A stretch of DNA of 25,531 bases. Source: a virus. The stretch lies in IMG/VR virus record IMGVR_UViG_3300046010_015343, positions 1 through 25,531 of that record. One strand, given 5' to 3'. Every line of letters begins with the position of its first letter. Positions within the stretch are counted from its first letter, which is position 1. Both the position numbers and the translations under genes were made by a program. Positions 505 to 11,114 of this stretch are shown one piece after another. The notes beneath the pieces were generated by a model that saw only the letters and a list, made by a program, of their open reading frames with translations, had not been told where the DNA came from and did no database searches.

Positions 505-534
505 GGACTACAAAGTTTACATTCATATATTTAA
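505..534 (+). promoter_or_regulatory. GGAYTACA-N13-TATATTTAA promoter
   Basis: GGACTACA, 13 bases, then TATATTTAA. It lies about 20 bases before the ATG at 555 and is one of 25 copies with identical spacing in the window. Confidence 0.8.
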
Positions 535-554
535 GTATAAGAAAAAAAAAGGAT

Positions 555-707
555 ATGAAAAATAAAACCAAACAACAGATACTAGCTGAAATGCTACAAA
601 AAGAATTAAACTCAACAGAACAAATGTGGGATGAAGGTAAATCACCTGCATTTATAGCTGGGTATTTAAAGGGTTTAATTAAAGTAACCATTTCAGAACT
701 AAAATGA
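555..707 (+). CDS. small helical protein, unknown function
   Basis: This 50-codon ORF begins after an A-rich leader (gaaaaaaaaaggatATG) just downstream of a consensus promoter. The product is charged and Lys/Glu-rich and probably forms two short helices. Its stop TGA overlaps the next start in an ATGA arrangement (704-707), which implies translational coupling with the SWIM-domain gene. No family is recognised. The call rests on promoter, leader and overlap, which all agree. Confidence 0.7.
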   Translation: MKNKTKQQILAEMLQKELNSTEQMWDEGKSPAFIAGYLKGLIKVTISELK

Positions 708-1012
708 TATATCTACCTATAGCAACAGAACATATTCCACCAACCATCGTAAATACCTATCAAGGTAGATACGCTGTGTTGGATGGAAAATGGTTTGAAA
801 TTGGACAAACCATTACATTGGATTACGTTAGGAAACATTGGAAACCAAAACCAATTGAAACCAATTCAATTAAAACATTTGCTATTAAGAGCTCGAATGG
901 GAAAGAACAGTATACCGTTACAGTGAATGGGGAATATTGGAAATGCAATTGTCCGAGTTGGAAGAACCCATGTAAACACATTGATACAGCTAAAGCTCAA
1001 ATTAAGGAATAG
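704..1012 (+). CDS. SWIM zinc-finger domain protein
   Basis: This is a 102-residue protein. Residues 81-92 read C-N-C-P-S-W-K-N-P-C-K-H, matching the SWIM signature CxCx(n)CxH, whose Cys/Cys/Cys/His set is expected to bind one zinc ion. SWIM domains occur in DNA- or protein-binding factors such as transposases and recombination or chromatin proteins, so a nucleic-acid- or protein-binding role is plausible but not shown. The N-terminal half has a beta-rich pattern with no family I can name. The start overlaps the preceding stop by ATGA. The TAG stop shares its G with the next GGACTACA box. Confidence 0.85.
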   Translation: MIYLPIATEHIPPTIVNTYQGRYAVLDGKWFEIGQTITLDYVRKHWKPKPIETNSIKTFAIKSSNGKEQYTVTVNGEYWKCNCPSWKNPCKHIDTAKAQIKE

Positions 1013-1041
1013 GACTACAGGATTTATTAACGTATATTTAC
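1012..1041 (+). promoter_or_regulatory. GGAYTACA-N13-TATATTTAC promoter
   Basis: GGACTACA begins on the last base of the upstream TAG stop; after 13 bases comes TATATTTAC. It serves the gene at 1064. Confidence 0.75.
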
Positions 1042-1063
1042 TTCAAACGAAAAAATAAAGGTT

Positions 1064-1354
1064 ATGATCGAAATTCAAATCAAAACAGAACACTTCAGAA
1101 AATCACCAGGATATGGATCTATTGATGAATGTCCATTAGCGCTTGCTTGTAAAGATTATTTCTCTGAGGGAACACGTATACGTGCAGGTGGGCACACTGT
1201 ACATATTAATAGAGAATCTTATAAGATTGATGATTATTGGGGAAATCCGAATGGCAATTTAAGGTGTGAGGAAATTAATGAAATGGTTAGTGATGCTAAG
1301 AATGGTAAAGAAATACCTACTGTGACAGTAACTTTAACAAAGTTAGAGTATTAG
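1064..1354 (+). CDS. hypothetical protein (96 aa)
   Basis: The gene has its own promoter and the typical leader aaaaataaaggttATG. The product contains two Cys in its first third (CPLALAC) and one near the middle, His and Tyr residues, and a Thr/Val-rich beta-like C-terminus. There is no signal peptide or membrane segment. I do not recognise a family. Its setting among single-gene promoter units suggests an early host-interaction gene, which is inference only. Confidence 0.75.
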   Translation: MIEIQIKTEHFRKSPGYGSIDECPLALACKDYFSEGTRIRAGGHTVHINRESYKIDDYWGNPNGNLRCEEINEMVSDAKNGKEIPTVTVTLTKLEY

Positions 1355-1383
1355 GATTACAAAATACACGTTCATATATTTAA
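1354..1383 (+). promoter_or_regulatory. GGAYTACA-N13-TATATTTAA promoter
   Basis: GGATTACA, 13 bases, TATATTTAA. The first G is the third base of the upstream TAG stop. It serves the gene at 1405. Confidence 0.8.
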
Positions 1384-1404
1384 TCAACTTAAAAAATAAA
1401 AGTT

Positions 1405-1737
1405 ATGAGCAAAATAACATTCCACCGCAACAGTGCATTTTCAATGAGATTTGATAATGGTTTTGTAGTTTCAGTTACAACAGGACCTGGTACTTATTCT
1501 AGTAACAAACATTTGGACACAGCAAATCCATTACGTCATGAAGCAACAACAGCAGAAATAGCATGTTGGGATGAAAATGACTCCGCTGCATCGTTTGTTC
1601 GACTTGGAGAATATGATGATGTGGTTGGTTGGGTACCTGCACATTTAGTAGCGCAATTTATTTTTATTATTTCTCAAGCTTCAAATAAAGAAGAAATTAT
1701 TGAAAAAGTTAGAGAATTAGGATTACATAAATTATAA
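1405..1737 (+). CDS. hypothetical protein (110 aa)
   Basis: This is a soluble mixed alpha/beta protein. A beta-rich N-terminal part (FHRNSAFSMRFDNG) and a Gly/Pro/Tyr turn (TGPGTY) are followed by an acidic Trp-containing segment (ACWDEND) and a C-terminal amphipathic helix (KEEIIEKVREL). It looks like a compact folded domain, but I cannot name the family. The last codons (tta gga tta cat aaa) carry the GGATTACA box of the promoter for the following tRNA-like unit, so coding and regulatory sequence overlap. Confidence 0.78.
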   Translation: MSKITFHRNSAFSMRFDNGFVVSVTTGPGTYSSNKHLDTANPLRHEATTAEIACWDENDSAASFVRLGEYDDVVGWVPAHLVAQFIFIISQASNKEEIIEKVRELGLHKL

Positions 1738-1749
1738 TTGTATATTTAA
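1720..1749 (+). promoter_or_regulatory. GGAYTACA-N13-TATATTTAA promoter (starts inside CDS)
   Basis: GGATTACA (1720-1727) lies inside the last codons of the upstream gene; TATATTTAA is at 1741-1749 with the usual 13-base spacing. The transcript would begin about 15 nt before the first tRNA-like element. Confidence 0.75.
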
Positions 1750-1769
1750 GTATAAGAAAAAATAAAAAT

Positions 1770-1856
1770 AGTTAGGTATCGTAAGTGGGAATGAATACCA
1801 CATAGGTAACGTCTTGTCGAGTACAAGAGATACAGGTTCGAATCCTGTCCTGACTA
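1770..1856 (+). tRNA. tRNA-like element A (class II shape, abnormal anticodon arm)
   Basis: A 7-bp acceptor stem is formed by AGTTAGG (1770-1776) with CCTGACT (1849-1855), with discriminator A1856. The T arm is ACAGG-TTCGAAT-CCTGT (1832-1848). A 4-bp D stem TCGT/ATGA (1779-1782/1791-1794) encloses a GG-containing loop. The long variable arm is TCTTGT/ACAAGA (1812-1817/1823-1828). The segment where the anticodon arm should lie gives only TACC-ACATA-GGTA, with a 5-nt loop. Opened to 7 nt, the loop would show CAT with A instead of U at position 33. CCA is not encoded. It shares its acceptor and T arms with the elements at 2013 and 4900. Whether it is a working tRNA, a decaying one or a mimic is open. 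Confidence 0.6.
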
Positions 1857-1870
1857 CTAAAAATAAAGAT

Positions 1871-2014
1871 ATGTTTAGAACATTGAAATACTTATGGAGT
1901 AATTTTCAAAAAAGACCATCTAAAAGAAGTTTTTTGAATTTCATTAGAATGATGAAAACTGAAATTAGATGTTTATTAATGACTGGCTACTCAACAGATG
2001 AAATACTAAAATAG
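1871..2014 (+). CDS. small basic protein between two tRNA-like elements
   Basis: This 47-codon ORF starts at 1871, 14 nt after tRNA-like element A, with the standard leader aaaaataaagatATG. An in-frame ATG at 1814 lies inside element A and is unlikely to be used. The product is basic (pattern KRPSKRSF) with aromatic residues and probably helical. The TAG stop (2012-2014) overlaps the first base of tRNA-like element B, so 5' processing of that element would cut the stop codon. The function is unknown. Confidence 0.6.
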   Translation: MFRTLKYLWSNFQKRPSKRSFLNFIRMMKTEIRCLLMTGYSTDEILK

Positions 2015-2111
2015 TCAGGTGGCGGAGAGGAAACGCTAACTATGGATAGTCTGAAGGGTGGAACATAGTCCTATACCCTGATGACCGCAGGTTCGAATCC
2101 TGTCCTGATTA
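2013..2111 (+). tRNA. tRNA-like element B (Leu-like D arm, enlarged centre)
   Basis: The acceptor is AGTCAGG (2013-2019) with CCTGATT (2104-2110, one G-T pair), and the discriminator is A2111. The T arm is GCAGG-TTCGAAT-CCTGT (2087-2103). The D arm reads TGGCGGAGAGGAAACGC, with a 3-bp GCG/CGC stem and a Leu/Ser-like TGGCGGA start. Fifty nt separate the D and T arms, about 15 more than a usual class II tRNA. A long hairpin AGGGTGGA/TCC-ACCCT (2055-2079) is possible, or alternatively ACTATG/CATAGT (2039-2044/2064-2069). No standard 5-bp/7-nt anticodon arm can be drawn. CCA is not encoded. Confidence 0.6.
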
Positions 2112-2126
2112 CTAAAAATAAAGGTT

Positions 2127-2237
2127 ATGAAACATGTATATAAGAAAATAGATAAAGATGGTACAGCGGAATGTACTAAATGCGGACTAAGAAATTCAGA
2201 TCCAAACAAAAGTGATTATACTAAATGTAAAAAATAA
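2127..2237 (+). CDS. mini Cys-rich (zinc-ribbon-like) peptide
   Basis: This 36-codon ORF starts after the leader actaaaaataaaggttATG, 15 nt downstream of tRNA-like element B. The peptide has C16-x2-C19 and a third Cys near the end (C34), in a Lys/Asp-rich background. This resembles half of a zinc knuckle. A fourth ligand could be H3. It is followed 5 nt later by another Cys-containing small gene, so the two are probably one operon. No function is assigned. Confidence 0.55.
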   Translation: MKHVYKKIDKDGTAECTKCGLRNSDPNKSDYTKCKK

Positions 2238-2242
2238 AGGTT

Positions 2243-2443
2243 ATGAAAACTACAGAACTAAAACAAGGATACTCAATTTTTGGGAACAAAGGAAATGTAT
2301 GGAGCGATACAGCTCATATATACAAAAGTGGGACAGGGAACTTATGTGGTACACCTGCACTATCAAATAACTGGGCTAGGATTGAACAAGTAGAACATAT
2401 TGGATGTCCGGAATGTTTAGAAAAGTACAAATTAGAAAACTAA
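2243..2443 (+). CDS. small putative zinc-binding protein
   Basis: This is a 66-residue protein with leader aaaaataaaggttATG. Cys35 (in the segment LCGTP) and a C-terminal C55-x2-C58 plus a nearby His (EHIGCPEC) make a plausible treble-cleft or knuckle metal site. Small proteins with a CG-TP...IGCPEC layout are familiar to me from phage genomes, but without known function. It sits in a short operon between the 36-codon peptide and the acidic 53-codon gene. Confidence 0.72.
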   Translation: MKTTELKQGYSIFGNKGNVWSDTAHIYKSGTGNLCGTPALSNNWARIEQVEHIGCPECLEKYKLEN

Positions 2444-2449
2444 ACGGTT

Positions 2450-2611
2450 ATGGAAGAATCATGGTATGAATTATCCCTTGAAATGGGACTATTAGGAGCG
2501 GTAAATGAATATGTTGCTATGAATGGGGACATTGAAGTAGAAGAATTAATGGAAATATTTTGTGTGAGTGAAGATGAAGCGATTGGAGTAGTTTTTCAAT
2601 TGCAATATTAG
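2450..2611 (+). CDS. small acidic helical protein
   Basis: This 53-codon ORF begins 6 nt after the previous stop (taaacggttATG). The product is strongly acidic, with repeated Glu/Met residues and a helix-turn-helix-like run (VEELMEIFCVSEDEAIGVVFQL). An acidic surface is common in phage proteins that mimic DNA or occupy host enzymes, but that role is only a possibility. The TAG stop supplies the first G of the next promoter. Confidence 0.65.
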   Translation: MEESWYELSLEMGLLGAVNEYVAMNGDIEVEELMEIFCVSEDEAIGVVFQLQY

Positions 2612-2640
2612 GACTACATTGTTTATACTCGTATATTTAA
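2611..2640 (+). promoter_or_regulatory. GGAYTACA-N13-TATATTTAA promoter
   Basis: GGACTACA, 13 bases, TATATTTAA; shares its first base with the upstream TAG stop; serves the gene at 2662. Confidence 0.8.
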
Positions 2641-2661
2641 GTAAACGAAAAAATAAGAGTT

Positions 2662-2901
2662 ATGAAAATAAAAGACCTAATTAAACACCTCGAAACATTA
2701 GATCAAGAAAAAGAACTAGTTGTAATTGCAACGGATCCAACAGATTGGGAATATGGTTTAGTTGTGAATGAAACAACGATTGAACTAGAAGAAATATACC
2801 CGTGTGAGGATAATGGTTTAGAAGGAGAAATAGAACATGGATATGATGAAGATGAATGTCCAATTGAAACGGAATGCTACGTTATTAGATTAAGTTGCTA
2901 G
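2662..2901 (+). CDS. small acidic protein (79 aa), unknown function
   Basis: The gene has its own promoter and leader (aaaaataagagttATG). The product is very acidic, particularly in residues 41-70 (ELEEIYPCEDN, HGYDEDECPIE). It starts with an amphipathic helix (IKDLIKHLETLDQEKELVV), a pattern seen in short phage proteins that precede a beta strand carrying VIATD. There are three or four Cys but no clear metal site. The acidic patch could suggest DNA mimicry, which is inference and not shown. Confidence 0.75.
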   Translation: MKIKDLIKHLETLDQEKELVVIATDPTDWEYGLVVNETTIELEEIYPCEDNGLEGEIEHGYDEDECPIETECYVIRLSC

Positions 2902-2930
2902 GATTACAAAACAAACAATAGTATATTTAA
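2901..2930 (+). promoter_or_regulatory. GGAYTACA-N13-TATATTTAA promoter
   Basis: GGATTACA, 13 bases, TATATTTAA; shares the G of the upstream TAG stop; serves the gene at 2976 through a longer A-rich leader. Confidence 0.8.
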
Positions 2931-2975
2931 GTAATAAGAAAAAAGCAAAAATAATATTCAGAAAAAAAAAGAACT

Positions 2976-3131
2976 ATGTACGGACTAAAATGTGACTACT
3001 ACACAAAGCAATTCACAACAATAGATGAATTGATCGATGACGTGATGAGTTCAGGAATGGACCCAAATTACGAAATAACACGTAACGGAAAAGGAACGGG
3101 GGAACAAGTAAGTGATTTAATACAATATTAG
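2976..3131 (+). CDS. small protein (51 aa), unknown function
   Basis: The ORF starts after a poly-A leader (gaaaaaaaaagaactATG). The sequence contains an acidic helix (IDELIDDVMS) followed by a turn and a short strand (NYEITRNGKG). The pattern is compatible with a tiny alpha/beta domain. No family is recognised. The TAG stop overlaps the first base of the next promoter, as in its neighbours. Confidence 0.65.
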   Translation: MYGLKCDYYTKQFTTIDELIDDVMSSGMDPNYEITRNGKGTGEQVSDLIQY

Positions 3132-3160
3132 GACTACAAAGTAAACGTTCATATATTTAA
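3131..3160 (+). promoter_or_regulatory. GGAYTACA-N13-TATATTTAA promoter
   Basis: GGACTACA, 13 bases, TATATTTAA; first base shared with the upstream TAG; serves the gene at 3185. Confidence 0.8.
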
Positions 3161-3184
3161 GTAAACATAAAAAACATAAGATAT

Positions 3185-3409
3185 ATGAAAAAGTGGTTCA
3201 AAGTATTGGAAGTAAACCATATCATTGAAGAAGTGACTGGACATGTTAACTGTGATTATTCTAGCTATACTGAAAGCTGTGTTGTGGAAGATTTAGAAAC
3301 GGGTGAAGTTATTAGTATAAATGAGAAAACTACTAATGAAAGGGAAGCTCAAATGATAACGAAAATAGATATGTTTGATTTGGTGGTTGGGGATGAATTT
3401 AGAGTATGA
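3185..3409 (+). CDS. hypothetical protein (74 aa)
   Basis: The gene starts with leader aaaaaacataagatATG after its own promoter. The product looks beta-rich (KWFKVLEVNH, SCVVEDLETGEVISI) with an acidic C-terminal part, suggesting a small barrel or sandwich. It ends at the edge of the first gene-free island, 7 bases before the GTATATAT/GGATATAC repeats. The function is unknown. Confidence 0.72.
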   Translation: MKKWFKVLEVNHIIEEVTGHVNCDYSSYTESCVVEDLETGEVISINEKTTNEREAQMITKIDMFDLVVGDEFRV

Positions 3410-3416
3410 CAAGTTC

Positions 3417-3446
3417 GTATATATGGATATACGGATATACGTATAG
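3417..3446 (+). repeat. tandem GTATATAN/GGATATAC palindromic repeats, cluster 1
   Basis: An 8-9 base unit built on GTATATAC or GGATATAC recurs three to four times. The 8-mer GTATATAC is itself a perfect palindrome. Related clusters occur at 3546, 7893, 8025, 8143 and 9021, all outside genes. Confidence 0.6.
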
Positions 3447-3606
3447 TTGGGAGTATGTGACCTAGGGATCAACGGGAATGGGACGCAGGAGTTGGGGGGA
3501 CACAACCCTTTCCCACCCCTCCCCACCTCACTTTACATCGACGAAATATATATGTATATACGAACACTTACGTCACGACAACCGCAAAGTACAGCATTTT
3601 TCACGA
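3447..3606. other. gene-free island 1 (G/C-rich, possible hairpin)
   Basis: I see no convincing gene in 3410-3655. The island is richer in G and C than its surroundings. GGGAATGGG (3474-3482) can pair with CCCTTTCCC (3506-3514) with one mismatch. CCCCACC (3521-3527) and CATCGAC (3536-3542), followed by an ATATATATGTATATAC repeat, recur in nearly the same order in the second island (8107-8158). This could be an operator, an origin part or a structured RNA; it is unassigned. Confidence 0.5.
3536..3562 (+). repeat. CATCGAC + GTATATA-type repeat, copy 1
   Basis: CATCGACRAA followed by an alternating T-A/T-G tract ending GTATATAC. It matches the copy at 8133-8158 at nearly every position. Confidence 0.65.
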
Positions 3607-3636
3607 GGATTACACGTTTTTTTACCATATATTTAA
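3607..3636 (+). promoter_or_regulatory. GGAYTACA-N13-TATATTTAA promoter
   Basis: GGATTACA, 13 bases, TATATTTAA, located at the end of island 1 rather than next to a stop codon; serves the gene at 3656. Confidence 0.8.
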
Positions 3637-3655
3637 CTCAATAAATAAAAAAGAT

Positions 3656-3880
3656 ATGAAAACAGATGTTAATTTAGAAATGTACCGTAACGTTGATATG
3701 ATTACTTCAGAACTACAACGTCAAATTGCTGAAATTGAACAGAGCATCGATGAATTCTGTGCTGATTTTGTTAAGTCCCAAGAAGACCTACAAATTGTTT
3801 CGCTTTTCCAATCCATGTTAACAGATTTATATTCAGACTTGGAACAATTGGAAAAAATAAGAAGTGTATTATATAACTAG
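3656..3880 (+). CDS. small coiled-coil protein (74 aa)
   Basis: The gene has leader aaataaaaaagatATG and a promoter directly upstream. The product is almost wholly helical, with heptad-like Leu/Ile spacing in two stretches (ITSELQRQIAEIEQSIDEF and LTDLYSDLEQLEKI), as in a helical hairpin. There is one Cys and no membrane segment. No family is recognised. Confidence 0.75.
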   Translation: MKTDVNLEMYRNVDMITSELQRQIAEIEQSIDEFCADFVKSQEDLQIVSLFQSMLTDLYSDLEQLEKIRSVLYN

Positions 3881-3909
3881 GATTACAAAATAAACATTCA
3901 TATATTCAG
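3880..3909 (+). promoter_or_regulatory. GGAYTACA-N13-TATATTCAG promoter
   Basis: GGATTACA, 13 bases, TATATTCAG; shares the G of the upstream TAG; serves the gene at 3924. Confidence 0.75.
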
Positions 3910-3923
3910 TTAAAATAAAGGTT

Positions 3924-4148
3924 ATGATTGATACAATTAACATAGTTACAATTGAATACTCCATGGACGATCCTTGTTCTCCAATTACCAATACATTTTA
4001 CTCATTTGATAATTCCAAAGGTGAATATTATTGTTACGTGATGAAAGACGAGGATATTTTAGTCACTAAGGAATGGATTAAAGCACATGATGAGTACTAT
4101 GAAAAATCACAAACCAAAGTTACAATTGAAGAAAGAAAATGTGATTAG
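3924..4148 (+). CDS. hypothetical protein (74 aa)
   Basis: The gene follows its own promoter with a very short leader (taaaataaaggttATG). The product starts with beta-like segments (INIVTIEYSMD), has a Tyr-rich middle (GEYYCYVMKDED) and ends with a charged tail. It is soluble and acidic. No domain is recognised. Confidence 0.73.
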   Translation: MIDTINIVTIEYSMDDPCSPITNTFYSFDNSKGEYYCYVMKDEDILVTKEWIKAHDEYYEKSQTKVTIEERKCD

Positions 4149-4177
4149 GATTACAAGATTTACATTCGTATATTTAA
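4148..4177 (+). promoter_or_regulatory. GGAYTACA-N13-TATATTTAA promoter
   Basis: GGATTACA, 13 bases, TATATTTAA; shares the G of the upstream TAG; serves the 32-codon gene at 4204. Confidence 0.8.
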
Positions 4178-4203
4178 ATAAACATAAAAAACATAAATAA
4201 CAT

Positions 4204-4302
4204 ATGAAGAAAGCAATTCAGAGTCCCGTAGTTTTAGTTCCAACTTGGTTTATTTTTATCCATGTAGTTGGGATAGTATTAAGTATTATTTTAACAAGTT
4301 AG
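4204..4302 (+). CDS. tiny single-pass membrane peptide
   Basis: This 32-codon ORF has its own promoter and leader (aaaacataaataacatATG). After a short basic start (MKKAIQ) nearly all residues are hydrophobic (VVLVPTWFIFIHVVGIVLSIIL), giving one membrane-spanning helix. The size fits a phage membrane peptide such as an exclusion or lysis-timing factor, but nothing in the sequence decides. The TAG stop overlaps the promoter of the structured RNA. Confidence 0.6.
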   Translation: MKKAIQSPVVLVPTWFIFIHVVGIVLSIILTS

Positions 4303-4331
4303 GATTTCAGAATTACAGTTCGTATATTAAT
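4302..4331 (+). promoter_or_regulatory. GGAYTACA-type promoter of the structured RNA
   Basis: GGATTTCA, 13 bases, TATATTAAT. The expected start, about 7 nt past TATATT, falls at about 4336, right at the first base-paired segment of the RNA at 4337-4537. Confidence 0.7.
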
Positions 4332-4336
4332 TAAAT

Positions 4337-4537
4337 AACCGTTCCGAGTACGGGGGATAAGATAGGAAAGGAACGGTTCAAACCGGGTAGCACTGGGGCA
4401 CGACGGATGAAATAATGCCGGCCCCCGCTCCCATTTAAAAGGTGGACATGATGGCCACCACGCGAAGGCACGGCGCACTCCAACAGTGAGTGTTAAGTCG
4501 GCCATGGAGGTCCGCAACGTTGGGCCTCCATTTTTTT
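4337..4537 (+). ncRNA. novel structured RNA, about 200 nt, promoter- and terminator-bounded
   Basis: There is no credible ORF on the + strand here. The segment is markedly G/C-rich within AT-rich surroundings. Helices I can draw are: ACCGTTCC/GGAACGGT (4338-4345/4370-4377, 8 bp); GGGGC...CGG/CCG-GCCCC (4395-4399, 4404-4406/4418-4425) with a 4-nt bulge; GGTGG/CCACC (4441-4445/4455-4459); CACTC/GAGTG (4476-4480/4488-4492). The 3' end is a terminator hairpin with seven Ts (4505-4537). A GGAYTACA promoter ends 6 nt before it. It does not look like tmRNA, RNase P RNA, 6S or SRP RNA by their signature motifs. An open frame on the minus strand across it looks like a shadow of base composition. Confidence 0.7.
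4505..4537 (+). terminator. intrinsic terminator of the structured RNA
   Basis: TGGAGG (4505-4510) pairs with CCTCCA (4525-4530), with possible extra CC/GG pairs inside the loop, followed by seven Ts. Confidence 0.85.
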
Positions 4538-4541
4538 ATTA

Positions 4542-4571
4542 GGACAACACAGTTTACGTTCATATATTTAA
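4542..4571 (+). promoter_or_regulatory. GGAYTACA-N13-TATATTTAA promoter
   Basis: GGACAACA, 13 bases, TATATTTAA; starts 5 nt after the T tract of the RNA terminator; serves the gene at 4584. Confidence 0.78.
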
Positions 4572-4583
4572 ATAAAAAAGGTT

Positions 4584-4853
4584 ATGACAAAAAAACAATT
4601 TCACTCAGTTATTAACAAAGACGTTTACACCTATATGGAACAATATTTTCCAGAATTCACCATTGATGATAGTGAAGGATATGGTAGAATATACTTTTTG
4701 GATTCCACGTCATCTAATCCGGCCGACGACAGCATACAATACCATCAATCAAGGCATGAAGTGTGTACACTGAATTGGGCTAGCGAACGTGTGAAGGATG
4801 TTGAACGTGAATTGGAGAGCTGGATAAACGCCTTAATTAAACAATATCAATAG
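4584..4853 (+). CDS. hypothetical protein (89 aa)
   Basis: The gene follows its promoter with a short leader (taaaaaaggttATG). The product is an alpha/beta protein with an aromatic N-terminal helix (YTYMEQYFPEF), an acidic loop and a C-terminal amphipathic helix (VKDVERELESWINALIKQY). One His/Cys-containing stretch (HQSRHEVC) has no recognised motif. The TAG stop overlaps the promoter of tRNA-like element C. Confidence 0.75.
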   Translation: MTKKQFHSVINKDVYTYMEQYFPEFTIDDSEGYGRIYFLDSTSSNPADDSIQYHQSRHEVCTLNWASERVKDVERELESWINALIKQYQ

Positions 4854-4882
4854 GAATACAAGTTATATAGTTGTATATTTAA
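4853..4882 (+). promoter_or_regulatory. GGAYTACA-N13-TATATTTAA promoter of tRNA-like element C
   Basis: GGAATACA, 13 bases, TATATTTAA. The nearest downstream feature is the tRNA-like element at 4900, so this copy seems to drive an RNA. Confidence 0.75.
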
Positions 4883-4899
4883 GTATAAGAAAAAAAGTT

Positions 4900-5001
4900 A
4901 GTCAGGTGGCGGAATTGGTTAAACGCAACTCTATAAATGGGTGTATTACAATAACATTGAAAACAGTAATACAACTACAGGTTCGAATCCTGTCCTGACT
5001 A
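4900..5001 (+). tRNA. tRNA-like element C (Leu-like, long variable arm)
   Basis: The acceptor is AGTCAGG (4900-4906) with CCTGACT (4994-5000), 7 perfect pairs, and the discriminator is A5001. The T arm is ACAGG-TTCGAAT-CCTGT. The D arm begins TGGCGGAATTGG, typical of Leu tRNAs, with GCG/CGC pairs. The candidate anticodon arm is ACTC-TATAAAT-GGGT (4928-4942): 4 pairs and a 7-nt loop that would show TAA (Leu), but with A in place of the nearly universal U33. The variable arm is a 7-bp hairpin GTATTAC/GTAATAC (4943-4949/4966-4972) with a 16-nt loop. At 102 nt it is longer than an ordinary class II tRNA. CCA is not encoded. Confidence 0.65.
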
Positions 5002-5009
5002 CTTTCCTT

Positions 5010-5310: not shown

Positions 5311-5324
5311 CTGTTCAAATATTA

Positions 5325-5354
5325 GGAATACAAGTTGTACATTCGTATATTTAA
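5325..5354 (+). promoter_or_regulatory. GGAYTACA-N13-TATATTTAA promoter
   Basis: GGAATACA, 13 bases, TATATTTAA; serves the gene at 5375. Confidence 0.8.
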
Positions 5355-5374
5355 GTAAACGAAAAAACGAAAAT

Positions 5375-5608
5375 ATGAAATATTCTGATTTCTTAGAAAA
5401 TAGAGGCCCCCAAATTAGGAATGATATTGAAAAATATTTTACTGAATTGATATATAATCATCTACCAGTAGAACCTAAAATGAGTGATGAAGAAGCAGAT
5501 AAATGGATGGATGATAATGTTTATAATGATAATGAAGCTAAAAAATATCTTTCCCCGTTATTTGATTTTATTCAATCCAAAATTGAAACAGCTAAATTAA
5601 TAAAATAA
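5375..5608 (+). CDS. small helical acidic protein (77 aa)
   Basis: The gene follows its promoter with leader aaaaaacgaaaatATG. The product is rich in Asp/Glu/Asn and Lys. Two predicted helical segments (IRNDIEKYFTELIYNHL and LSPLFDFIQSKIETAKLI) flank a very acidic linker (MSDEEADKWMDDNVY). It has no Cys and no signal peptide. No family is recognised. Confidence 0.74.
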   Translation: MKYSDFLENRGPQIRNDIEKYFTELIYNHLPVEPKMSDEEADKWMDDNVYNDNEAKKYLSPLFDFIQSKIETAKLIK

Positions 5609-5616: not shown

Positions 5617-5646
5617 GGACTACACATTTTACAGTCATATATTTAG
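5617..5646 (+). promoter_or_regulatory. GGAYTACA-N13-TATATTTAG promoter
   Basis: GGACTACA, 13 bases, TATATTTAG; serves the gene at 5669. Confidence 0.78.
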
Positions 5647-5976: not shown

Positions 5977-6006
5977 GGATTACAAGTTAAACATATGTAT
6001 ATTTAA
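5977..6006 (+). promoter_or_regulatory. GGAYTACA-N13-TATATTTAA promoter
   Basis: GGATTACA, 13 bases, TATATTTAA; serves the secreted-peptide gene at 6027. Confidence 0.8.
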
Positions 6007-6206: not shown

Positions 6207-6233
6207 GAATATTATTAATGTTAGTTTATTAGT

Positions 6234-6265: not shown

Positions 6266-6281
6266 TTCAGTTACGTTATTA

Positions 6282-6311
6282 GGATTACAAGTTAAACATT
6301 CATATATTTAA
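6282..6311 (+). promoter_or_regulatory. GGAYTACA-N13-TATATTTAA promoter
   Basis: GGATTACA, 13 bases, TATATTTAA; serves the gene at 6332. Confidence 0.8.
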
Positions 6312-6331
6312 TCAACTTAAAAAACGTAAAT

Positions 6332-6487: not shown

Positions 6488-6498
6488 ATAATTAATTA

Positions 6499-6528
6499 GG
6501 ACTACACGTTAATACATTGTATATTTAA
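6499..6528 (+). promoter_or_regulatory. GGAYTACA-N13-TATATTTAA promoter
   Basis: GGACTACA, 13 bases, TATATTTAA; serves the gene at 6550. Confidence 0.8.
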
Positions 6529-6549
6529 TTAACTTAAAAACGTAAAAAC

Positions 6550-6720
6550 ATGAACGAAAACGAAGAATTAATACACGGTCTACAATTAAACAATATTGAA
6601 CAAGACAAGATAGCAGCGTTAATTGAATTAAAAACAGCAGCGGCTAAATTAGGATGGACATTAGATAACTACGATGAAGCGGGAGATGGATTGTATGTTA
6701 CGTTTGCTATTTTTAAATAA
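6550..6720 (+). CDS. small helical protein (56 aa)
   Basis: The gene follows its promoter with leader aaaaacgtaaaaacATG. The N-terminal two-thirds is an amphipathic helix region rich in Leu/Ile/Ala (IEQDKIAALIELKTAAAKLG). It is followed by an acidic turn (DNYDEAGDG) and a short hydrophobic strand (LYVTFAIF). No family is recognised. Confidence 0.68.
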   Translation: MNENEELIHGLQLNNIEQDKIAALIELKTAAAKLGWTLDNYDEAGDGLYVTFAIFK

Positions 6721-6731
6721 ATAATTAATTA

Positions 6732-6761
6732 GGACTACACGTTAAACAATTGTATATTCAA
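6732..6761 (+). promoter_or_regulatory. GGAYTACA-N13-TATATTCAA promoter
   Basis: GGACTACA, 13 bases, TATATTCAA; serves the AT-hook gene at 6814 through an unusually long A-rich leader of about 45 nt. Confidence 0.78.
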
Positions 6762-6813
6762 GTATAAGAAAAATAAATAATTAAAAACTTAAAACAACTA
6801 AAAAATAAAGGTT

Positions 6814-7152
6814 ATGAAAAACGAAAATCAAAACATCGAAACAGTACAGTTAGGTCGTCCTGTTAATCCGAATTCAGTTCGTCAACAACGATTAGCTGAG
6901 TTAGAAGCAAAACGTAATAACGGAGAATTAAAACGAGGACGTCCGGTAAACGGGACATCAGCACGTCAAGCTAGATTAGCTGAGCTAGCAGCTAAAGCTG
7001 AAGCGAATGGTGGTTCAATTAAACGAGGACGTCCGTCAAATGGCGAATCAGAACGTCAGAAACGATTAGCTGAGCGTGCTGCTAAAGCAGCGAGTGGAAT
7101 TGAAATTAAACGCGGTCGACCAGCAATGGTTAAAGCTGAAGTTAGTAAGTAA
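6814..7152 (+). CDS. AT-hook repeat DNA-binding protein
   Basis: This 112-residue basic protein is built from about three and a half copies of a roughly 30-residue unit. Each unit starts with an AT-hook core: LGRP (13-16), RGRP (41-44), RGRP (71-74) and RGRP (100-103). Each core is followed by a helix rich in Arg, Gln, Leu, Ala and Glu (for example ERQKRLAERAAKA). Arg-Gly-Arg-Pro cores insert into the minor groove of AT-rich DNA, so the protein probably binds the AT-rich phage genome or host DNA at several points. This is a nucleoid-protein-like architecture. The clustered TATA-rich repeats in this window are candidate targets, which is inference. A terminator follows at 7174. Confidence 0.88.
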   Translation: MKNENQNIETVQLGRPVNPNSVRQQRLAELEAKRNNGELKRGRPVNGTSARQARLAELAAKAEANGGSIKRGRPSNGESERQKRLAERAAKAASGIEIKRGRPAMVKAEVSK

Positions 7153-7173
7153 GTTGTGTTTATGTTTTAAGTA

Positions 7174-7201
7174 GGGTAGTCCGTTAGGACTACCTTATTT
7201 T
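7174..7201 (+). terminator. intrinsic terminator fused to the next promoter
   Basis: GGTAGTCC (7175-7182) pairs with GGACTACC (7187-7194), 8 bp with a 4-nt loop, followed by TTATTTT. The right arm doubles as the GGACTACM box of the next promoter. Confidence 0.85.
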
Positions 7202-7216
7202 ATCTCATATATTTAA
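7187..7216 (+). promoter_or_regulatory. GGAYTACA-type promoter embedded in a terminator
   Basis: GGACTACC, 13 bases, TATATTTAA. The upstream box is the 3' arm of the preceding terminator hairpin. It serves the gene at 7237. Confidence 0.75.
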
Positions 7217-7236
7217 GTATAATAAAAACGAAACAT

Positions 7237-7416
7237 ATGAAACTGAAGCAAATATTATTAAACATGTTAGCCATTATTATGGCGTTTGAATTTATTGGAA
7301 CAAGTATATTGTGTATCAAGTACCCGAACTGGGGTGGATTGGTGGTTATTACTGTGTCTGCGATTGCATTTGTGATTGCGTTTAATAAAGCATTTTTCTA
7401 TAAGTACGAACATTAG
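7237..7416 (+). CDS. small two-helix membrane protein (59 aa)
   Basis: The leader is ataaaaacgaaacatATG. Two hydrophobic segments, residues about 5-26 (QILLNMLAIIMAFEFIGTSIL) and 33-50 (GGLVVITVSAIAFVIAF), flank a short loop (CIKYPNWG). The ends are basic (MKLKQ, KAFFYKYEH). This should be an inner-membrane hairpin. It is the first of three consecutive small membrane proteins, each with its own promoter. The function is unknown. Confidence 0.72.
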   Translation: MKLKQILLNMLAIIMAFEFIGTSILCIKYPNWGGLVVITVSAIAFVIAFNKAFFYKYEH

Positions 7417-7445
7417 GATTACATGTAGTACAGTTGTATATTTAA
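7416..7445 (+). promoter_or_regulatory. GGAYTACA-N13-TATATTTAA promoter
   Basis: GGATTACA, 13 bases, TATATTTAA; shares the G of the upstream TAG; serves the gene at 7469. Confidence 0.8.
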
Positions 7446-7468
7446 TCAACCAATAAAACATAAAACAT

Positions 7469-7654
7469 ATGAAACTAGGTATTGTAATTGCATTGTTAAT
7501 AGCCATTGGAGCTATAGTAGGTGAGGTAATGTGCATCGTTAAAGCCGTTAATTGTAACTGGGAACCAATTGGTAAAGCAGAAATTGTATACACAGGTGCC
7601 GCGTGCGTAGGCCTTGGAGCAATAGTAGGATATATGGATATAGAGGATAAATAA
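7469..7654 (+). CDS. small two-helix membrane protein (61 aa)
   Basis: The leader is caataaaacataaaacatATG. Hydrophobic segments are at residues about 3-24 (LGIVIALLIAIGAIVGEVMCIV) and 40-55 (VYTGAACVGLGAIVGY), separated by a loop with NCNWEPIGK. The second helix is Gly/Ala-rich, compatible with tight helix packing. The first segment could also act as an uncleaved signal anchor. No family is recognised. Confidence 0.72.
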   Translation: MKLGIVIALLIAIGAIVGEVMCIVKAVNCNWEPIGKAEIVYTGAACVGLGAIVGYMDIEDK

Positions 7655-7656
7655 TA

Positions 7657-7686
7657 GGACAACACAACATACATTTGTATATTCAG
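7657..7686 (+). promoter_or_regulatory. GGAYTACA-N13-TATATTCAG promoter
   Basis: GGACAACA, 13 bases, TATATTCAG; serves the gene at 7709. Confidence 0.75.
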
Positions 7687-7708
7687 TCAACCAATAAAAC
7701 ATAAACAC

Positions 7709-7885
7709 ATGGAAAAGGCACTTAGATGGTTCATCATTATCGGATTAGCAGTAGCGGCTGTAATAGGACATATCAACGTATTAAATACGGCTGAAGAAGG
7801 TGGGTGGATGTTTGCAGCATGTGTTGGTATCCAATTTTTTATCCTGTTGTGGGGTTTACGGGTTGCCAAAAAATTAGGTGTATAG
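7709..7885 (+). CDS. small two-helix membrane protein (58 aa)
   Basis: The leader is caataaaacataaacacATG. Two membrane segments are predicted, residues about 7-24 (WFIIIGLAVAAVIGHINV) and 33-51 (WMFAACVGIQFFILLWGL), with a short acidic loop (NTAEEGG) and a basic C-terminus (RVAKKLGV). It is the third of the small membrane genes and the last gene before gene-free island 2. Confidence 0.7.
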   Translation: MEKALRWFIIIGLAVAAVIGHINVLNTAEEGGWMFAACVGIQFFILLWGLRVAKKLGV

Positions 7886-7892
7886 GAAGGGT

Positions 7893-7916
7893 GTATATAT
7901 GCGTACGTACGTATGC
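7893..7916 (+). repeat. GTATATAT plus GCGTACGTACGTATGC near-palindrome
   Basis: GTATATAT (7893-7900) is followed by a 16-base near-perfect palindrome (7901-7916) of alternating purine-pyrimidine steps. It belongs to the GTATATAC family of clusters. Confidence 0.55.
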
Positions 7917-7936
7917 AATTATACATAATATCCCAT

Positions 7937-7986
7937 GCGCGCCGTCGTCCATATAGCGGGCGGGCGCGCTGGACTTGGATATGGAC
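7937..7986 (+). other. gene-free island 2: GC-rich element with interlocking inverted repeats
   Basis: No gene is seen between 7886 and 8207. GCGCGCC (7937-7943) pairs with GGCGCGC (7963-7969), and GTCCATAT (7947-7954) pairs with ATATGGAC (7979-7986). The two stems interleave, so an H-type pseudoknot is possible in RNA; in DNA they would be two overlapping inverted repeats. The burst of GC is striking in this AT-rich genome. The role is unassigned. Confidence 0.5.
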
Positions 7987-8024
7987 CAATTCCCACATCT
8001 TATACGATCTTTACGCCCCGATTA

Positions 8025-8048
8025 GTATATACGTATATACATATATAC
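8025..8048 (+). repeat. three tandem GTATATAC-type 8-mers
   Basis: GTATATAC, GTATATAC and ATATATAC lie end to end. Each GTATATAC is a perfect 8-bp palindrome. This is the cleanest cluster of the family. Confidence 0.7.
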
Positions 8049-8106
8049 CCATAAACATATCCAAATTTCCAAATAACCCTTTTTACCAAACTCTCCAAGG
8101 GACGCA

Positions 8107-8158
8107 CCCCACCAAAAAAACGATCTTTTTACCATCGACAAAGTATATACGTATATAT
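8107..8158 (+). repeat. CCCCACC...CATCGAC + GTATATAC module, copy 2
   Basis: CCCCACC (8107-8113), CATCGACAAA (8133-8142), then GTATATAC-GTATATAT (8143-8158). Island 1 has the same elements in the same order at 3521-3562. The module lies about 50 bp before the next gene start. Confidence 0.65.
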
Positions 8159-8207
8159 TGACATTGGGAAGAAAACTTCACATATTTATATACAAAACAT
8201 TCACCTA

Positions 8208-8831
8208 ATGAATTTAACAGAGATCTACATTAATGTATTTTTTGAAAATTTTTTTAAAGAACTACAAGAAGAGTATCCATTAAATGAAGAAGCAAATCCA
8301 GCTCTTCAAGAGTTACTTAAAAAAGCAGACGAACTTGTTTTTAAAAAGTTTGGTATTAATCCAAGTGATAAAGTTTACTTTATAGCAGGTTCAGCAGCCT
8401 TATATTTATTTCCAGTTTTAAGAGATAGATTAGATTTACGTAGTACAGTAGGTGATTTAGATATTGTTATTCCAGATCCTAAGTATTGGAAACAAGCAGG
8501 TCTCGAAGGACAAACTGTCTATCGTCCAGGAGAAGACAAGCGTATAGAAGCGTTTATTGGGTGGGATCCTTCCAAAGCAGGTGGTGAATATGCTAACGTA
8601 TCAGTAAGAAGTACCTCAGATATTTTGAAAGATTCATTTCAATCTCAAGGCTATTGGTTTATGAGTTTGATAGACATTTTTGACTATAAAATGAAGTTAG
8701 GTCGTCCTAAAGAAAAGGATATTCTTGATAAAATCAAAGCATACCAAGAAGGAACTATTGCCGATAAAATTGGTTTATTAAGACAATTACTTTCGTATTA
8801 TAAGAAAGAAGATATTAAAGCAACAAGTTAG
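8208..8831 (+). CDS. nucleotidyltransferase-fold protein
   Basis: This 207-residue protein has the pattern of the MNT/AbiEii-like nucleotidyltransferase superfamily. A GS pair occurs at residues 61-62 (FIAGSAAL). A D-x-D metal-binding pair is at D83 and D85 (GDLDIVI). A conserved-type C-terminal motif with Lys/Arg/Asp lies at 161-174 (KMKLGRPKEKDILD). Such enzymes transfer nucleotides to proteins, RNA or small molecules. Here it could modify a host target, RNA ends or an antiviral factor, but the substrate is not evident. The start follows a TATTTATAT element and island 2, without the GGAYTACA promoter. The TAG stop opens the next promoter. Confidence 0.82.
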   Translation: MNLTEIYINVFFENFFKELQEEYPLNEEANPALQELLKKADELVFKKFGINPSDKVYFIAGSAALYLFPVLRDRLDLRSTVGDLDIVIPDPKYWKQAGLEGQTVYRPGEDKRIEAFIGWDPSKAGGEYANVSVRSTSDILKDSFQSQGYWFMSLIDIFDYKMKLGRPKEKDILDKIKAYQEGTIADKIGLLRQLLSYYKKEDIKATS

Positions 8832-8860
8832 GATTTCCAAATTTTATTTTATATATTTCA
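8831..8860 (+). promoter_or_regulatory. GGAYTACA-type promoter, nearly leaderless
   Basis: GGATTTCC, 13 bases, TATATTTCA. The ATG at 8863 lies only 5 nt after TATATT, so a start at the usual distance would give a leaderless message. Confidence 0.65.
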
Positions 8861-8862
8861 GT

Positions 8863-9021
8863 ATGAAAAATTTATTAAAAATAATCCTCGTATTTGTTTT
8901 GTATTATCTTATTGGTAGTTTTATTGCTTGGGATCTAAACGTAGCTCATTGGAGTTGGTGGGGTAGATTAGTTTGTTTAGTATTTGCTACTTGGGGTGCA
9001 TCCAGAGCACTCGAAGATTAG
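8863..9021 (+). CDS. small membrane protein (52 aa)
   Basis: The N-terminal helix is strongly hydrophobic (LLKIILVFVLYYLIGSFIAW, residues 4-23). A second, Trp-rich amphipathic segment follows (HWSWWGRLVCLVFATWGA, residues 29-46), and the tail is charged (SRALED). Probably an integral membrane protein with two helices. Its start directly abuts the promoter box. The TAG stop overlaps the first base of a GTATATAC repeat pair. The function is unknown. Confidence 0.68.
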   Translation: MKNLLKIILVFVLYYLIGSFIAWDLNVAHWSWWGRLVCLVFATWGASRALED

Positions 9022-9036
9022 TATATACATATATAC
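9021..9036 (+). repeat. GTATATAC-ATATATAC repeat pair
   Basis: Two abutting 8-mers of the same family as 8025-8048, beginning on the last base of the upstream stop codon and lying in the leader of the T5orf172 gene. Confidence 0.6.
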
Positions 9037-9079
9037 GTAGGAAGGTTGTAAATGTTAAGGCATGGTGCTATAAAAGGTT

Positions 9080-9568
9080 ATGAAAAAGATTCCAACAATT
9101 AAATCTATCTCTCTTGAGGAAGCAGAAAATTATATTTCTCAAGATGAAGATGTGCAAAATTCTTCAATTTATTATTTTACTATGTCCCCATTGGATACAC
9201 CTTCTGGTATTGATGGAATGTGGGATATAACTTATTATACTCGAAGACCTAAAAAGACTGTTCCAACTGATGGAATGGGAGATGATATCATTTATGTTAT
9301 GTCAAATCCTTCAATTCCTGGTTTGTTGAAAATAGGATATACACGAAAAGAAATTGGTATTCGAATTAAGGATTTATCTAAAGCAACAGGCGTTCCTACG
9401 CCGTTTAAGTTGGAATACGTGTTTAAATGTTATAATGGACTACAGCTTGAAAGTGACATACATAAGCATTTAAAAGATTTTAGACCGAACAATTATCGCG
9501 AATTTTTTGATGTGACGTTAAACCAAGCTATAGAAGCCATTAAATACTTGGGAGAAAGTTATATTTAA
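9080..9568 (+). CDS. T5orf172 (GIY-YIG-like) domain protein
   Basis: This 162-residue protein's C-terminal two-thirds has the T5orf172 layout: a strand IIYVMSNP (70-77), KIGYT (84-88), an Arg helix (R95 onward, RIKDLS), LSKATGVPTPF (99-109), a Glu/His helix (E124, H128, H130) and R-x4-REFF (135-143). T5orf172 is related to the GIY-YIG nuclease fold, so this may be a small endonuclease or a nucleic-acid-binding relative. The N-terminal ~65 residues are acidic with no known domain. No GGAYTACA box precedes it, so it is probably co-transcribed with the small membrane gene upstream. The leader is taaaaggttATG. Confidence 0.85.
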   Translation: MKKIPTIKSISLEEAENYISQDEDVQNSSIYYFTMSPLDTPSGIDGMWDITYYTRRPKKTVPTDGMGDDIIYVMSNPSIPGLLKIGYTRKEIGIRIKDLSKATGVPTPFKLEYVFKCYNGLQLESDIHKHLKDFRPNNYREFFDVTLNQAIEAIKYLGESYI

Positions 9569-9571
9569 CTT

Positions 9572-9601
9572 GGATTACAAAATATCTATTATTATATTAA
9601 C
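9572..9601 (+). promoter_or_regulatory. GGAYTACA-N13-TATATTAAC promoter
   Basis: GGATTACA, 13 bases, TATATTAAC; serves the lipoprotein gene at 9628. Confidence 0.7.
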
Positions 9602-9627
9602 AATAAAAACAAATTAAAAATTTATTT

Positions 9628-9819
9628 ATGAAACAATTTATTATCTTAGCTGCACTAGTTACATTTTTAACTTCATGTGGTGGAACTCTAACTGAAACTA
9701 TCCCTGCAACTGATTCTGTTGCTGTTGATACTACTAAAGTTGACACTTCTGCTTGTTGCAAAGATTCAGTTAAAAAGAAATATGACATGTATGATCAAAC
9801 TCGTATAGTTGTAAAGTAA
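9628..9819 (+). CDS. small lipoprotein
   Basis: This 63-residue protein has a signal peptide (MKQFIILAALVTFLTSC) ending in the lipobox LTSC, so Cys17 should be lipidated after signal peptidase II cleavage. It is followed by GG and a Thr/Asp/Val-rich linker (TIPATDSVAVDTTKVD) and a short Cys-Cys segment. Anchoring in the inner or outer membrane is expected. Phage lipoproteins of this size can act in superinfection exclusion or lysis; which applies here is not shown. A strong terminator follows. Confidence 0.82.
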   Translation: MKQFIILAALVTFLTSCGGTLTETIPATDSVAVDTTKVDTSACCKDSVKKKYDMYDQTRIVVK

Positions 9820-9844
9820 TTAGTGTATTAGTATTTGATTTTGA

Positions 9845-9891
9845 ATTGCTTCATATTTATGGGAAACCATATATGAGGCAATTTTTGTTTT
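9845..9891 (+). terminator. strong intrinsic terminator
   Basis: ATTGCTTCATAT (9845-9856) and ATATGAGGCAAT (9871-9882) form a 12-bp stem with one G-T pair, followed by a T-rich tail (TTTTGTTTT). It ends the lipoprotein unit. Confidence 0.85.
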
Positions 9892-9907
9892 AAAATAATT
9901 AGGGAAA

Positions 9908-10423
9908 ATGTTTTTTAAAAATAAATTAACTTTAATTGATAGATCTATAGATTTAGTAGGTTATTTATTTAAAACGCTTTTTGATATTTTTAAAATGAAT
10001 ATAAACAATATATTTAACTTATTTAACGATCAGCCTGATCAATCTCAAGATGACGAAACGTCATTATTGGTAGATTTTTCGGAACATCCATTTTATTGGA
10101 TTGGGGGGTTTAATAAGGTAATTGCTAACCATTCCTATTTTCAACAATATACTGTTAAAATGTTTAAAGATGCTTCTCCAAGTTTGGATGAAGATGAAAT
10201 GGAAAAGGCAGGTAATCATTTAATGTTTGAAAAAGCCTGGGAATATATAAAAGATATAAAACTAAACAATCAGTTTCATGTTGAATGTTTGGGGAAAAAG
10301 GCGTCTTTTGGGTTTTGTAAAAACTTAGAATATGCCGTACAACATTTTGAGCAGTATGAAGAATATGAAAAGTGTGCCTTACTCAAAGGTATTGAGGTAA
10401 AAGTTAAAGAGTTTTTAAGGTAA
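9908..10423 (+). CDS. hypothetical protein (171 aa)
   Basis: The start at 9908 follows aattagggaaaATG; an internal Met at residue 30 is an alternative. The first 29 residues are hydrophobic and amphipathic (LIDRSIDLVGYLFKTLFDIF), resembling a peripheral membrane helix. An acidic linker (DQSQDDETS) and a soluble mostly helical domain with Trp, Tyr and Phe residues follow. I do not recognise the family. No GGAYTACA promoter is seen. Confidence 0.75.
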   Translation: MFFKNKLTLIDRSIDLVGYLFKTLFDIFKMNINNIFNLFNDQPDQSQDDETSLLVDFSEHPFYWIGGFNKVIANHSYFQQYTVKMFKDASPSLDEDEMEKAGNHLMFEKAWEYIKDIKLNNQFHVECLGKKASFGFCKNLEYAVQHFEQYEEYEKCALLKGIEVKVKEFLR

Positions 10424-10443
10424 ACTTGATTGACTATTTTTTC

Positions 10444-10470
10444 ACCCGTATATTAAAATTACGGGTTTAA
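10444..10470 (+). terminator. weak hairpin between convergent genes
   Basis: ACCCGTA (10444-10450) pairs with TACGGGT (10460-10466), 7 bp. The tail on the + strand is only TTAAAATAA, and on the minus strand it is A-rich, so this is a modest terminator candidate between converging genes. Confidence 0.45.
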
Positions 10471-10512
10471 AATAAAGATTTAGGAATTAAAGGGAATGAA
10501 TGAGGGGGGAGA

Positions 10513-11037
10513 TTATTTCCAATGGTTATATCTGGTGATCAAACGATTGAAATATGATTTATCACTGATTGGAATTACATATTCATTATTCGTTACATAG
10601 TTATAAACTTTAACTGAATCTAGAGGATATGTTTTAAGTAAATTATTTTGCTGTTTAGATATATTAAATACAGCTAATATTTTACAACTCATTCTTTTTG
10701 TACTTCCTATTACAATAGGTTGTTGTGTTTTAGGATATAGTGTTATTACAGTAGAATCTGAACAGTATGTTTCTAATGGATCTCCTTTTTTAAATGTAAT
10801 AGGTTTAGGCATTTTGTCTTTATAATACAATTTTAAAGTCATTATAAATTCATACCCAGGCATATCTACATTTTCAACTATTGGTTGAAGTATAAAACTA
10901 GAATCACTATTCAGTACTAATGGAGCTGGTTGAGGTAGATCAATTTTAATCTCTCTTGCACTTCTATCTATAGTTGTTAGACTCATAAAGAATCCTAAAC
11001 ATAATACTACCAGAAAAGTTGAAATGGAGAATTTCAT
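10513..11037 (-). CDS. secreted/periplasmic protein, only minus-strand gene
   Basis: This 174-residue protein has an N-terminal signal peptide (MKFSISTFLVVLCLGFFMSL, residues 1-20). The mature part is beta-rich with a Pro-rich start (LPQPAPLVLNS), Tyr/Lys segments and two Cys (C91, C118) that could form a disulfide. It is transcribed against all its neighbours and converges with the gene ending at 10423. A TATTTATGG element lies upstream on its own strand (11054-11062). Because it is host-like in type (exported, single gene), it may be a recent acquisition or an envelope-modifying phage protein. No family is recognised. Confidence 0.78.
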   Translation of the reverse strand: MKFSISTFLVVLCLGFFMSLTTIDRSAREIKIDLPQPAPLVLNSDSSFILQPIVENVDMPGYEFIMTLKLYYKDKMPKPITFKKGDPLETYCSDSTVITLYPKTQQPIVIGSTKRMSCKILAVFNISKQQNNLLKTYPLDSVKVYNYVTNNEYVIPISDKSYFNRLITRYNHWK

Positions 11038-11084
11038 GTATCGTTGTATTTAACCATAAATATAAGATTTTTTAATTTTAACTT

Positions 11085-11114
11085 GGAATTCAAAAAATTA
11101 TTTTGTATATTAAA
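11085..11114 (+). promoter_or_regulatory. GGAYTACA-type promoter (divergent version)
   Basis: GGAATTCA, 13 bases, TATATTAAA; serves the gene at 11132. It is the last and most divergent copy of the series. Confidence 0.6.

Follow-up and report, generated by a model that had tools for sequence, protein, structure and literature searches.

A candidate early promoter array with fixed element spacing in a T4-like phage of Bacteroidota

The 25,531-nucleotide (nt) virus sequence IMGVR_UViG_3300046010_015343 (positions 1 to 25,531 of that IMG/VR record, hereafter the window) derives from a T4-like phage that is a distant relative of Flavobacterium phage immuto. This 25.5-kb fragment carries, between positions 505 and 11114, 25 + strand copies of a two-part motif situated before small genes and tRNA-like RNAs. 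We propose that these are probably the early-region promoter set of a T4-like Bacteroidota phage, built as phage-tuned sigma-A promoters and most likely read directly by the host polymerase. We refer to this motif and its relatives as class A, and to a second motif without an upstream box as class B. All promoters of both classes are predicted from the sequence letters, and the interpretation draws throughout on features of sequence: the motif itself, its spacing, its strand, its position ahead of genes, its conservation in relatives, the presence of two classes, the register of the elements and the restriction of one box type to a clade. From these we infer the timing of expression, the polymerase that reads the promoters and the cause of the change in the box.

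The class A motif

A pattern scan of the window with GGAYTACA-N13-TATATTTAA at three or fewer mismatches identifies 25 sites on the + strand, all within 505-11114, and none on the - strand, where the best match has four mismatches. The exact form GGAYTACA-N13-TATATT occurs 17 times in the forward orientation, and neither in reverse nor as a reversed control pattern; these 17 pairings of GGAYTACA with TATATT all have a spacing of 13, with none at any of the other spacings between 5 and 30. Control sequences from a first-order Markov model contain no exact matches and a mean of 0.52 sites (maximum 3) at three or fewer mismatches, and a position-weight matrix (PWM) scan with a score of at least 14 recovers 24 sites on the + strand, none on the - strand and none in the Markov controls. 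The initial annotation had reported 25 + strand copies with exactly 13 bases between the two parts and had judged this far beyond chance; the pattern, spacing and PWM scans bear out the count and the spacing, and with about 0.5 sites expected against 25 found the second judgement holds as well. Alignment reveals that the conserved block is larger than described there, consisting of A.TAGGAYTACA, a semi-conserved spacer, TTCR directly before TATATT or TATATTTAA, and an A-rich leader.

No class A site lies inside any + strand gene of the window, so the motif is not equally frequent within genes, an outcome that would have counted against promoters. Three sites do overlap open reading frames (ORFs), all on the - strand and spurious in appearance. 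None of the window sites has a predicted hairpin at -5 kcal/mol or below.

Class A sites and the genes they precede

The sites are all on the + strand and, except where scores are given, were found by both the pattern and the PWM scans. TATATT typically lies about 30 nt ahead of the start codon, in the window and in its relatives, and if TATATTTA occupies -12 to -5, as the sigma-A box TAnnTTTG does in F. psychrophilum (PMC9723704), transcription would start about 18 nt before the ATG. The leftmost site (505..534; 0 mismatches, PWM 47.1) precedes the coding sequence (CDS) beginning at 555. An upstream ORF was found for 18 window sites, and in 10 of them the box TAG doubles as its stop codon. 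These include 1012..1041 (stop of CDS 704-1012, before CDS 1064), 1354..1383 (stop of CDS 1064-1354, before CDS 1405), 2611..2640 (stop of CDS 2450-2611, before CDS 2662), 2901..2930 (stop of CDS 2662-2901, before CDS 2976), 3131..3160 (stop of CDS 2976-3131, before CDS 3185), 3880..3909 (stop of CDS 3656-3880, before CDS 3924), 4148..4177 (stop of CDS 3924-4148, before a short ORF from about 4204), 7416..7445 (stop of CDS 7237-7416, before CDS 7469) and a degenerate site at 8831..8860 (PWM 23.2; stop of CDS 8208-8831, before CDS 8863).

Further putative promoters are at 3607..3636 (before CDS 3656), 5325..5354 (CDS 5375), 5617..5646 (CDS 5669), 5977..6006 (CDS 6027), 6282..6311 (CDS 6332), 6499..6528 (CDS 6550), 6732..6761 (CDS 6814, an AT-hook repeat protein) and 7187..7216 (CDS 7237), with the form GGACAACA at 4542..4571 (CDS 4584) and 7657..7686 (CDS 7709). 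Two sites precede tRNA-like RNAs, 1720..1749 (RNA starting at about 1766) and 4853..4882 (RNA at about 4900-5002), and a variant (GGATTTCA ... TATATTAAT) at 4302..4331 (3 mismatches, PWM 23.8) stands before an apparently non-coding stretch. The two rightmost sites are of a TTGG type, CTTGGATTACA at 9572..9601 (2 mismatches, before CDS 9628) and CTTGGAATTCA at 11085..11114 (3 mismatches, before CDS 11132). The proposal that nearly every small gene has a promoter of its own thus gains support from where the predicted sites lie. We note that the stretches between promoters at 3409-3607 and 4302-4542 lack a convincing ORF; the latter, behind the degenerate variant at 4302..4331, may encode a small RNA. 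There is no Rfam match.

Class A arrays in related phages

The second half of the window encodes a T4-like baseplate, including gp25 and a wedge protein that shares 47% identity with its immuto counterpart. Searching with the motif itself identified related virus records, namely g1 (G001, IMGVR 3300008117_001056), g2 (G002, 3300042691_040362), g3 (G003, 3300046002_005059), g5 (G005, 3300046009_012100), g6 (G006, 3300036985_006124) and g9 (G009, 3300017917_003388); coordinates for g5 and g9 refer to the reverse complement of the record, and genes outside immuto were called simply as ORFs. Because most relatives are fragments, absences in them mean little. The order of array, T5orf172 protein, phosphohydrolase, sigma factor and baseplate is shared with immuto, g1, g2, g3, g6 and g9 as far as the contigs reach.

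The search for the box in related phages that the initial annotation had suggested yields the same kind of one-strand, fixed-spacing array, with up to about 50 sites per phage. After refinement of the profile for each phage there are 52 class A sites in g2, 32 in g1, 28 in g9, 15 in g6 and 11 in g3, nearly all on one strand; the median distance from TATATT to the ATG in the relatives is 30 to 50 nt, and few sites are in genes. The box TAG coincides with an upstream stop codon at 15 of 35 sites in g2, 6 of 21 in g1 and 5 of 11 in g3, and at none in the TTGG-type phages. In the syntenic region of immuto, a de novo motif search before small genes recovers a homologous but different array, AGTTG-N20-TATATTTAG, with 35 sites. 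Class A is concentrated in the early region away from the virion genes, with 31 of the 35 immuto sites below 78 kb and 49 of the 52 g2 sites below 66 kb. The exact motif is absent from Microcystis phage Mel-JY01 and from the uncultured LR756508; the former (PP395634.1, L097), whose recorded host is a cyanobacterium, has a wedge protein 46% identical to that of the window. Ten of the 35 class A spacers in immuto (NC_055915.1; L072-L075) fold as stable hairpins, for example at 22092, 33345, 37318, 64522, 67985 and 104414, several of them with T's behind the hairpin, reminiscent of a terminator fused to the promoter downstream of it.

The -33 register and a change of box type

Box types were compared among 80 loci collected through the sigma gene. 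Sister phages among these loci carry TTTGG-N19-TATATTTA, with the box in the same register; TTAGG-N19 occurs 92 times against at most 4 at any other spacing, and TTTGG-N19 62 times against at most 9. The window, its sisters and immuto share a G at -21 from the -7 box, and the element in this register is TTTGG in the sisters, TTG in immuto and TTAGG with its extension in the clade of the window. Two host-type genomes of the Arenibacter family, albeit small samples, show a peak of TTG before TAnnTTTG near the same offset (5 where 1.4 were expected, and 4 to 5 where 1 to 1.5 were). The initial annotation had compared the downstream part to the Bacteroidota TAnnTTTG box, a likeness supported by the TA and TTT kept in TATATTTA, and had described the upstream box as unlike the usual -33 element. 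The latter view is not supported: the box lies some 20 nt before the -7 box, in the register of the host -33 element, where sisters and immuto have TTTG or TTG and the window has TTAG.

Of ten gene trees, nine unite the TTAGG phages in a single clade, and therefore a single change of the box across the set is probable, with dozens of promoters per genome probably going from TTTGG to TTAGG together in the clade of the window. Mixed box types are present in g6, and two sites of the window, at 9572 and 11085, are still of the TTGG type. A changed reader, a changed host or drift under a tolerant reader would explain such a set-wide change. The gene tree of the phosphohydrolase (11344-12135) conflicts with those of nine neighbouring genes, probably reflecting recombination of that gene alone.

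Candidate class B promoters and a putative phage sigma factor

Class B (TATTTATAAT) has no conserved upstream box; immuto, g2, g9 and the window all carry it, and most copies stand 4 to 30 nt ahead of structural genes. The two classes are partitioned by genome region (Fisher p=6.7e-6 in immuto and 1.1e-4 in g2, with region borders that we chose from the gene map). Predicted late-class promoters on the + strand of the window are TATTTATAATA at 13186..13196 (before CDS 13216; conserved in g2 and g3) and TATTTATA at 16569..16576 (before CDS 16581; conserved in g2 and g3) and 22989..22996 (before CDS 23004; conserved in g2), with a further possible TATTTATA element at 8183..8190 before CDS 8208.

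In T4, gp55 reads late promoters that consist of an 8-bp box and nothing more (PMC2988020). Class B likewise is an AT-rich 8-bp -10 box before virion genes with nothing else conserved, as is characteristic of a gp55-type late system, and a putative gp55-like sigma is encoded nearby, although the sequence is TATTTATA here and a TATA-type 8-mer in T4. This putative sigma-70-family protein, late-sigma-like in character (12475..13176, + strand), has weak family matches: E=0.0024 to a PHROG late sigma, E=2.7e-4 to Pfam Sigma70_r2 and E=1.1e-3 to TIGR02937, the last two below cut-off. A fold search gives sigma factors as the top matches at non-significant scores (E>=0.2). It is the probable reader of class B, which it fits better than class A. 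The sigmas of g2, g6 and g9 have an additional stretch of about 58 residues after a KIH motif (L079:7255-8127, L095:9974-10849 and the g9 copy, compared with window 12475-13176), which those of the window, g3 and immuto lack.

With both classes masked, the host consensus TTG-N19-21-TAnnTTTG is absent from the + strand non-coding DNA of immuto, g2 and g9. As no early class with the host consensus was found in these phages, class A is most likely in use as soon as infection begins.

tRNA-like RNAs

The window encodes three tRNA-like RNAs (1766-1855, 2013-2112 and about 4900-5002), two of them behind class A promoters. They have an invariant acceptor stem (AGTCAGG...CCTGACTA) and D-like and T arms, but the middle, about 40 to 70 nt long, is almost wholly different between copies and has no clear anticodon. 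Further copies are in G002 (at 38596 and 40552), in g9, the reverse complement of G009 (at 5420 and 174318), and in L219-L297. A pattern scan finds them in at least 120 viral stretches, 83 of 93 inserts being unique among the matches listed, and the 3' half has no match in 60 cellular genomes.

Which polymerase reads the class A promoters?

Host sigma-A is our first choice as the reader because class A has the skeleton of host promoters, with TTTG or TTG retained in the relatives. Class A has in common with Bacteroidota sigma-A promoters (TTTG at -33, TAnnTTTG at -7) the positions of both elements, a TATATTT core and, counted from the TA, a T at -23 and a G at -21. Each class A promoter would pair a -7 box, TATATTTA, which a short TTCR immediately precedes, with a -33 box in the host position whose downstream extension gives TAGGAYTACA; it often begins on the stop codon of the preceding gene. 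Nearly every small gene, probably devoted to host takeover, and the tRNA-like RNAs would have one such promoter. Host RNA polymerase carrying sigma-A would most likely read class A directly when infection starts, yielding among other products the phage's own late sigma, which would then open the TATTTATAAT class, itself without an upstream box, before the virion genes. In the clade of the window the -33 box would have gone from TTTGG to TTAGG across the set.

Several observations weigh against direct reading by the host. The -7 box ends in A and not G at nearly all sites, and the -33 box of the window, although at a fixed position, is TTAG, one base from the host TTTG; the extra GAYTACA is also no host feature, with a single exact match to the full motif in a collection of cellular genomes. 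Among 149 Arenibacter-family genomes there are five matches, no more than for the reversed control, and we therefore rejected the box as a class of host promoters in its own right. Since the plain host consensus likewise shows no enrichment over control by the same count, such whole-genome pattern counts are insensitive and constitute weak evidence. A set-wide change of the box is also the outcome expected from a changed reader, and the hosts are inferred.

T4 offers two precedents for such promoters. Its early promoters add further consensus to that of host promoters (PMC2988021), and class A resembles them in being many presumably strong, one-strand promoters before small early genes that combine host elements with additional conserved positions. 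They differ in having Bacteroidota -33 and -7 elements where T4 has -35, TGn and -10, in that one class here seems to serve both early and metabolic genes, in the restriction of the -33 box change to one clade, and in the frequent overlap of the box with an upstream stop codon. T4 middle promoters depend on AsiA and a MotA box at -35 to -26 with the consensus wwwTGCTTtA (PMC2988021), and the initial annotation had placed the upstream box where MotA-type activators bind. This placement is supported, in that setting TATATT at -12 puts TAGGAYTACA at -35 to -26, and both systems have a box 12 or 13 bp from a host-type -10. However, TAGGAYTACA is unrelated to the MotA consensus, and the relatives keep a host-like -33 core (TTTG or TTG); a MotA-like activator reading class A would fit exactly in position but has no candidate, and it is the less probable and an unsupported reading.

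The strongest alternative, to which we give tentative weight as clearly less probable than direct reading, is sigma appropriation: an early-made or injected phage protein would bind the -35 to -26 box and dock on sigma-A in place of region 4, much as MotA acts with AsiA, and a change in that protein would account for TTTGG becoming TTAGG. The match to the MotA box in position, roughly in length and in its 13 bp distance from the -10, an extension far more specific than the host -33 element, the joint change of a whole promoter set in one clade, and the virtual absence of the full motif from cellular genomes are all consistent with this. But ten phage records contain no MotA_activ match, albeit in a search whose control was also silent, and the sister phages and immuto retain host-like TTTG or TTG. 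An activator would first have to be made from some early class with the host consensus, and as none was found, it would have to be injected or use unrecognised promoters. We considered as a candidate TTAGG reader the early protein encoded at 6814-7149, which has repeated RGRP AT-hook-like units and no family match. It tracked the TTAGG type in the fetched stretches, but whole records show that two TTGG-type phages have it as well, and we rejected it. Homologues are present in many relatives, with none found in immuto, and g2 and g9 encode further RGRP proteins. The specific form in which the extended -33 box is read on host polymerase by a phage protein that probably enters with the virion or is made immediately, so that a change in this protein moved dozens of promoters from TTTGG to TTAGG together, strikes us as rather unlikely, at much the same level as sigma appropriation in general.

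We regard it as improbable that the phage sigma itself (12475-13176) reads class A, with a C-terminal helix-turn-helix on the box and region 2 on TATATTTA. It is the sole sigma-like gene noticed, its C-terminal half is predicted to be all-helical, and the TAGG-type phages are one clade in the sigma tree, a co-inheritance with box type that was suggestive at first. But because eight other gene trees group the same phages into the same single clade, this link is not special to sigma and we discarded it; moreover, class B suits a region-2-only late sigma of the T4 gp55 type, and the sigma would be required ahead of expression of its own gene. No phage-encoded RNA polymerase was recognised by Pfam among nine large proteins of g9 and immuto, a search that was not exhaustive.

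That the repeats are instead carried between small genes as operators, RNA elements or protein-binding sites is very improbable, for although the motif is long and uniform and the g9 box region is partly palindromic by eye, the distance to start codons is fixed, the single-strand orientation follows the genes, a host-type -7 box lies in host register, tRNA-like RNAs begin after sites, the class is partitioned against the late promoters, and no window site has a stable hairpin.

Implications

Little has been written on the transcription programmes of T4-like Bacteroidota phages, and we found no description of these promoters in the open-access literature. Sequence comparison here yields a two-class map, an early array and a late TATTTATA class, for a phage family whose relatives in public virus contigs number in the hundreds and which includes the cultured immuto, where timing is testable. 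In Flavobacterium genetics the class A promoters may also find use as strong parts. That the -33 box changed across the whole set amounts to a natural experiment on the reader of that box, and if a virion-delivered or immediately made phage protein were that reader, this family of Bacteroidota phages would have a sigma-appropriation system of its own.

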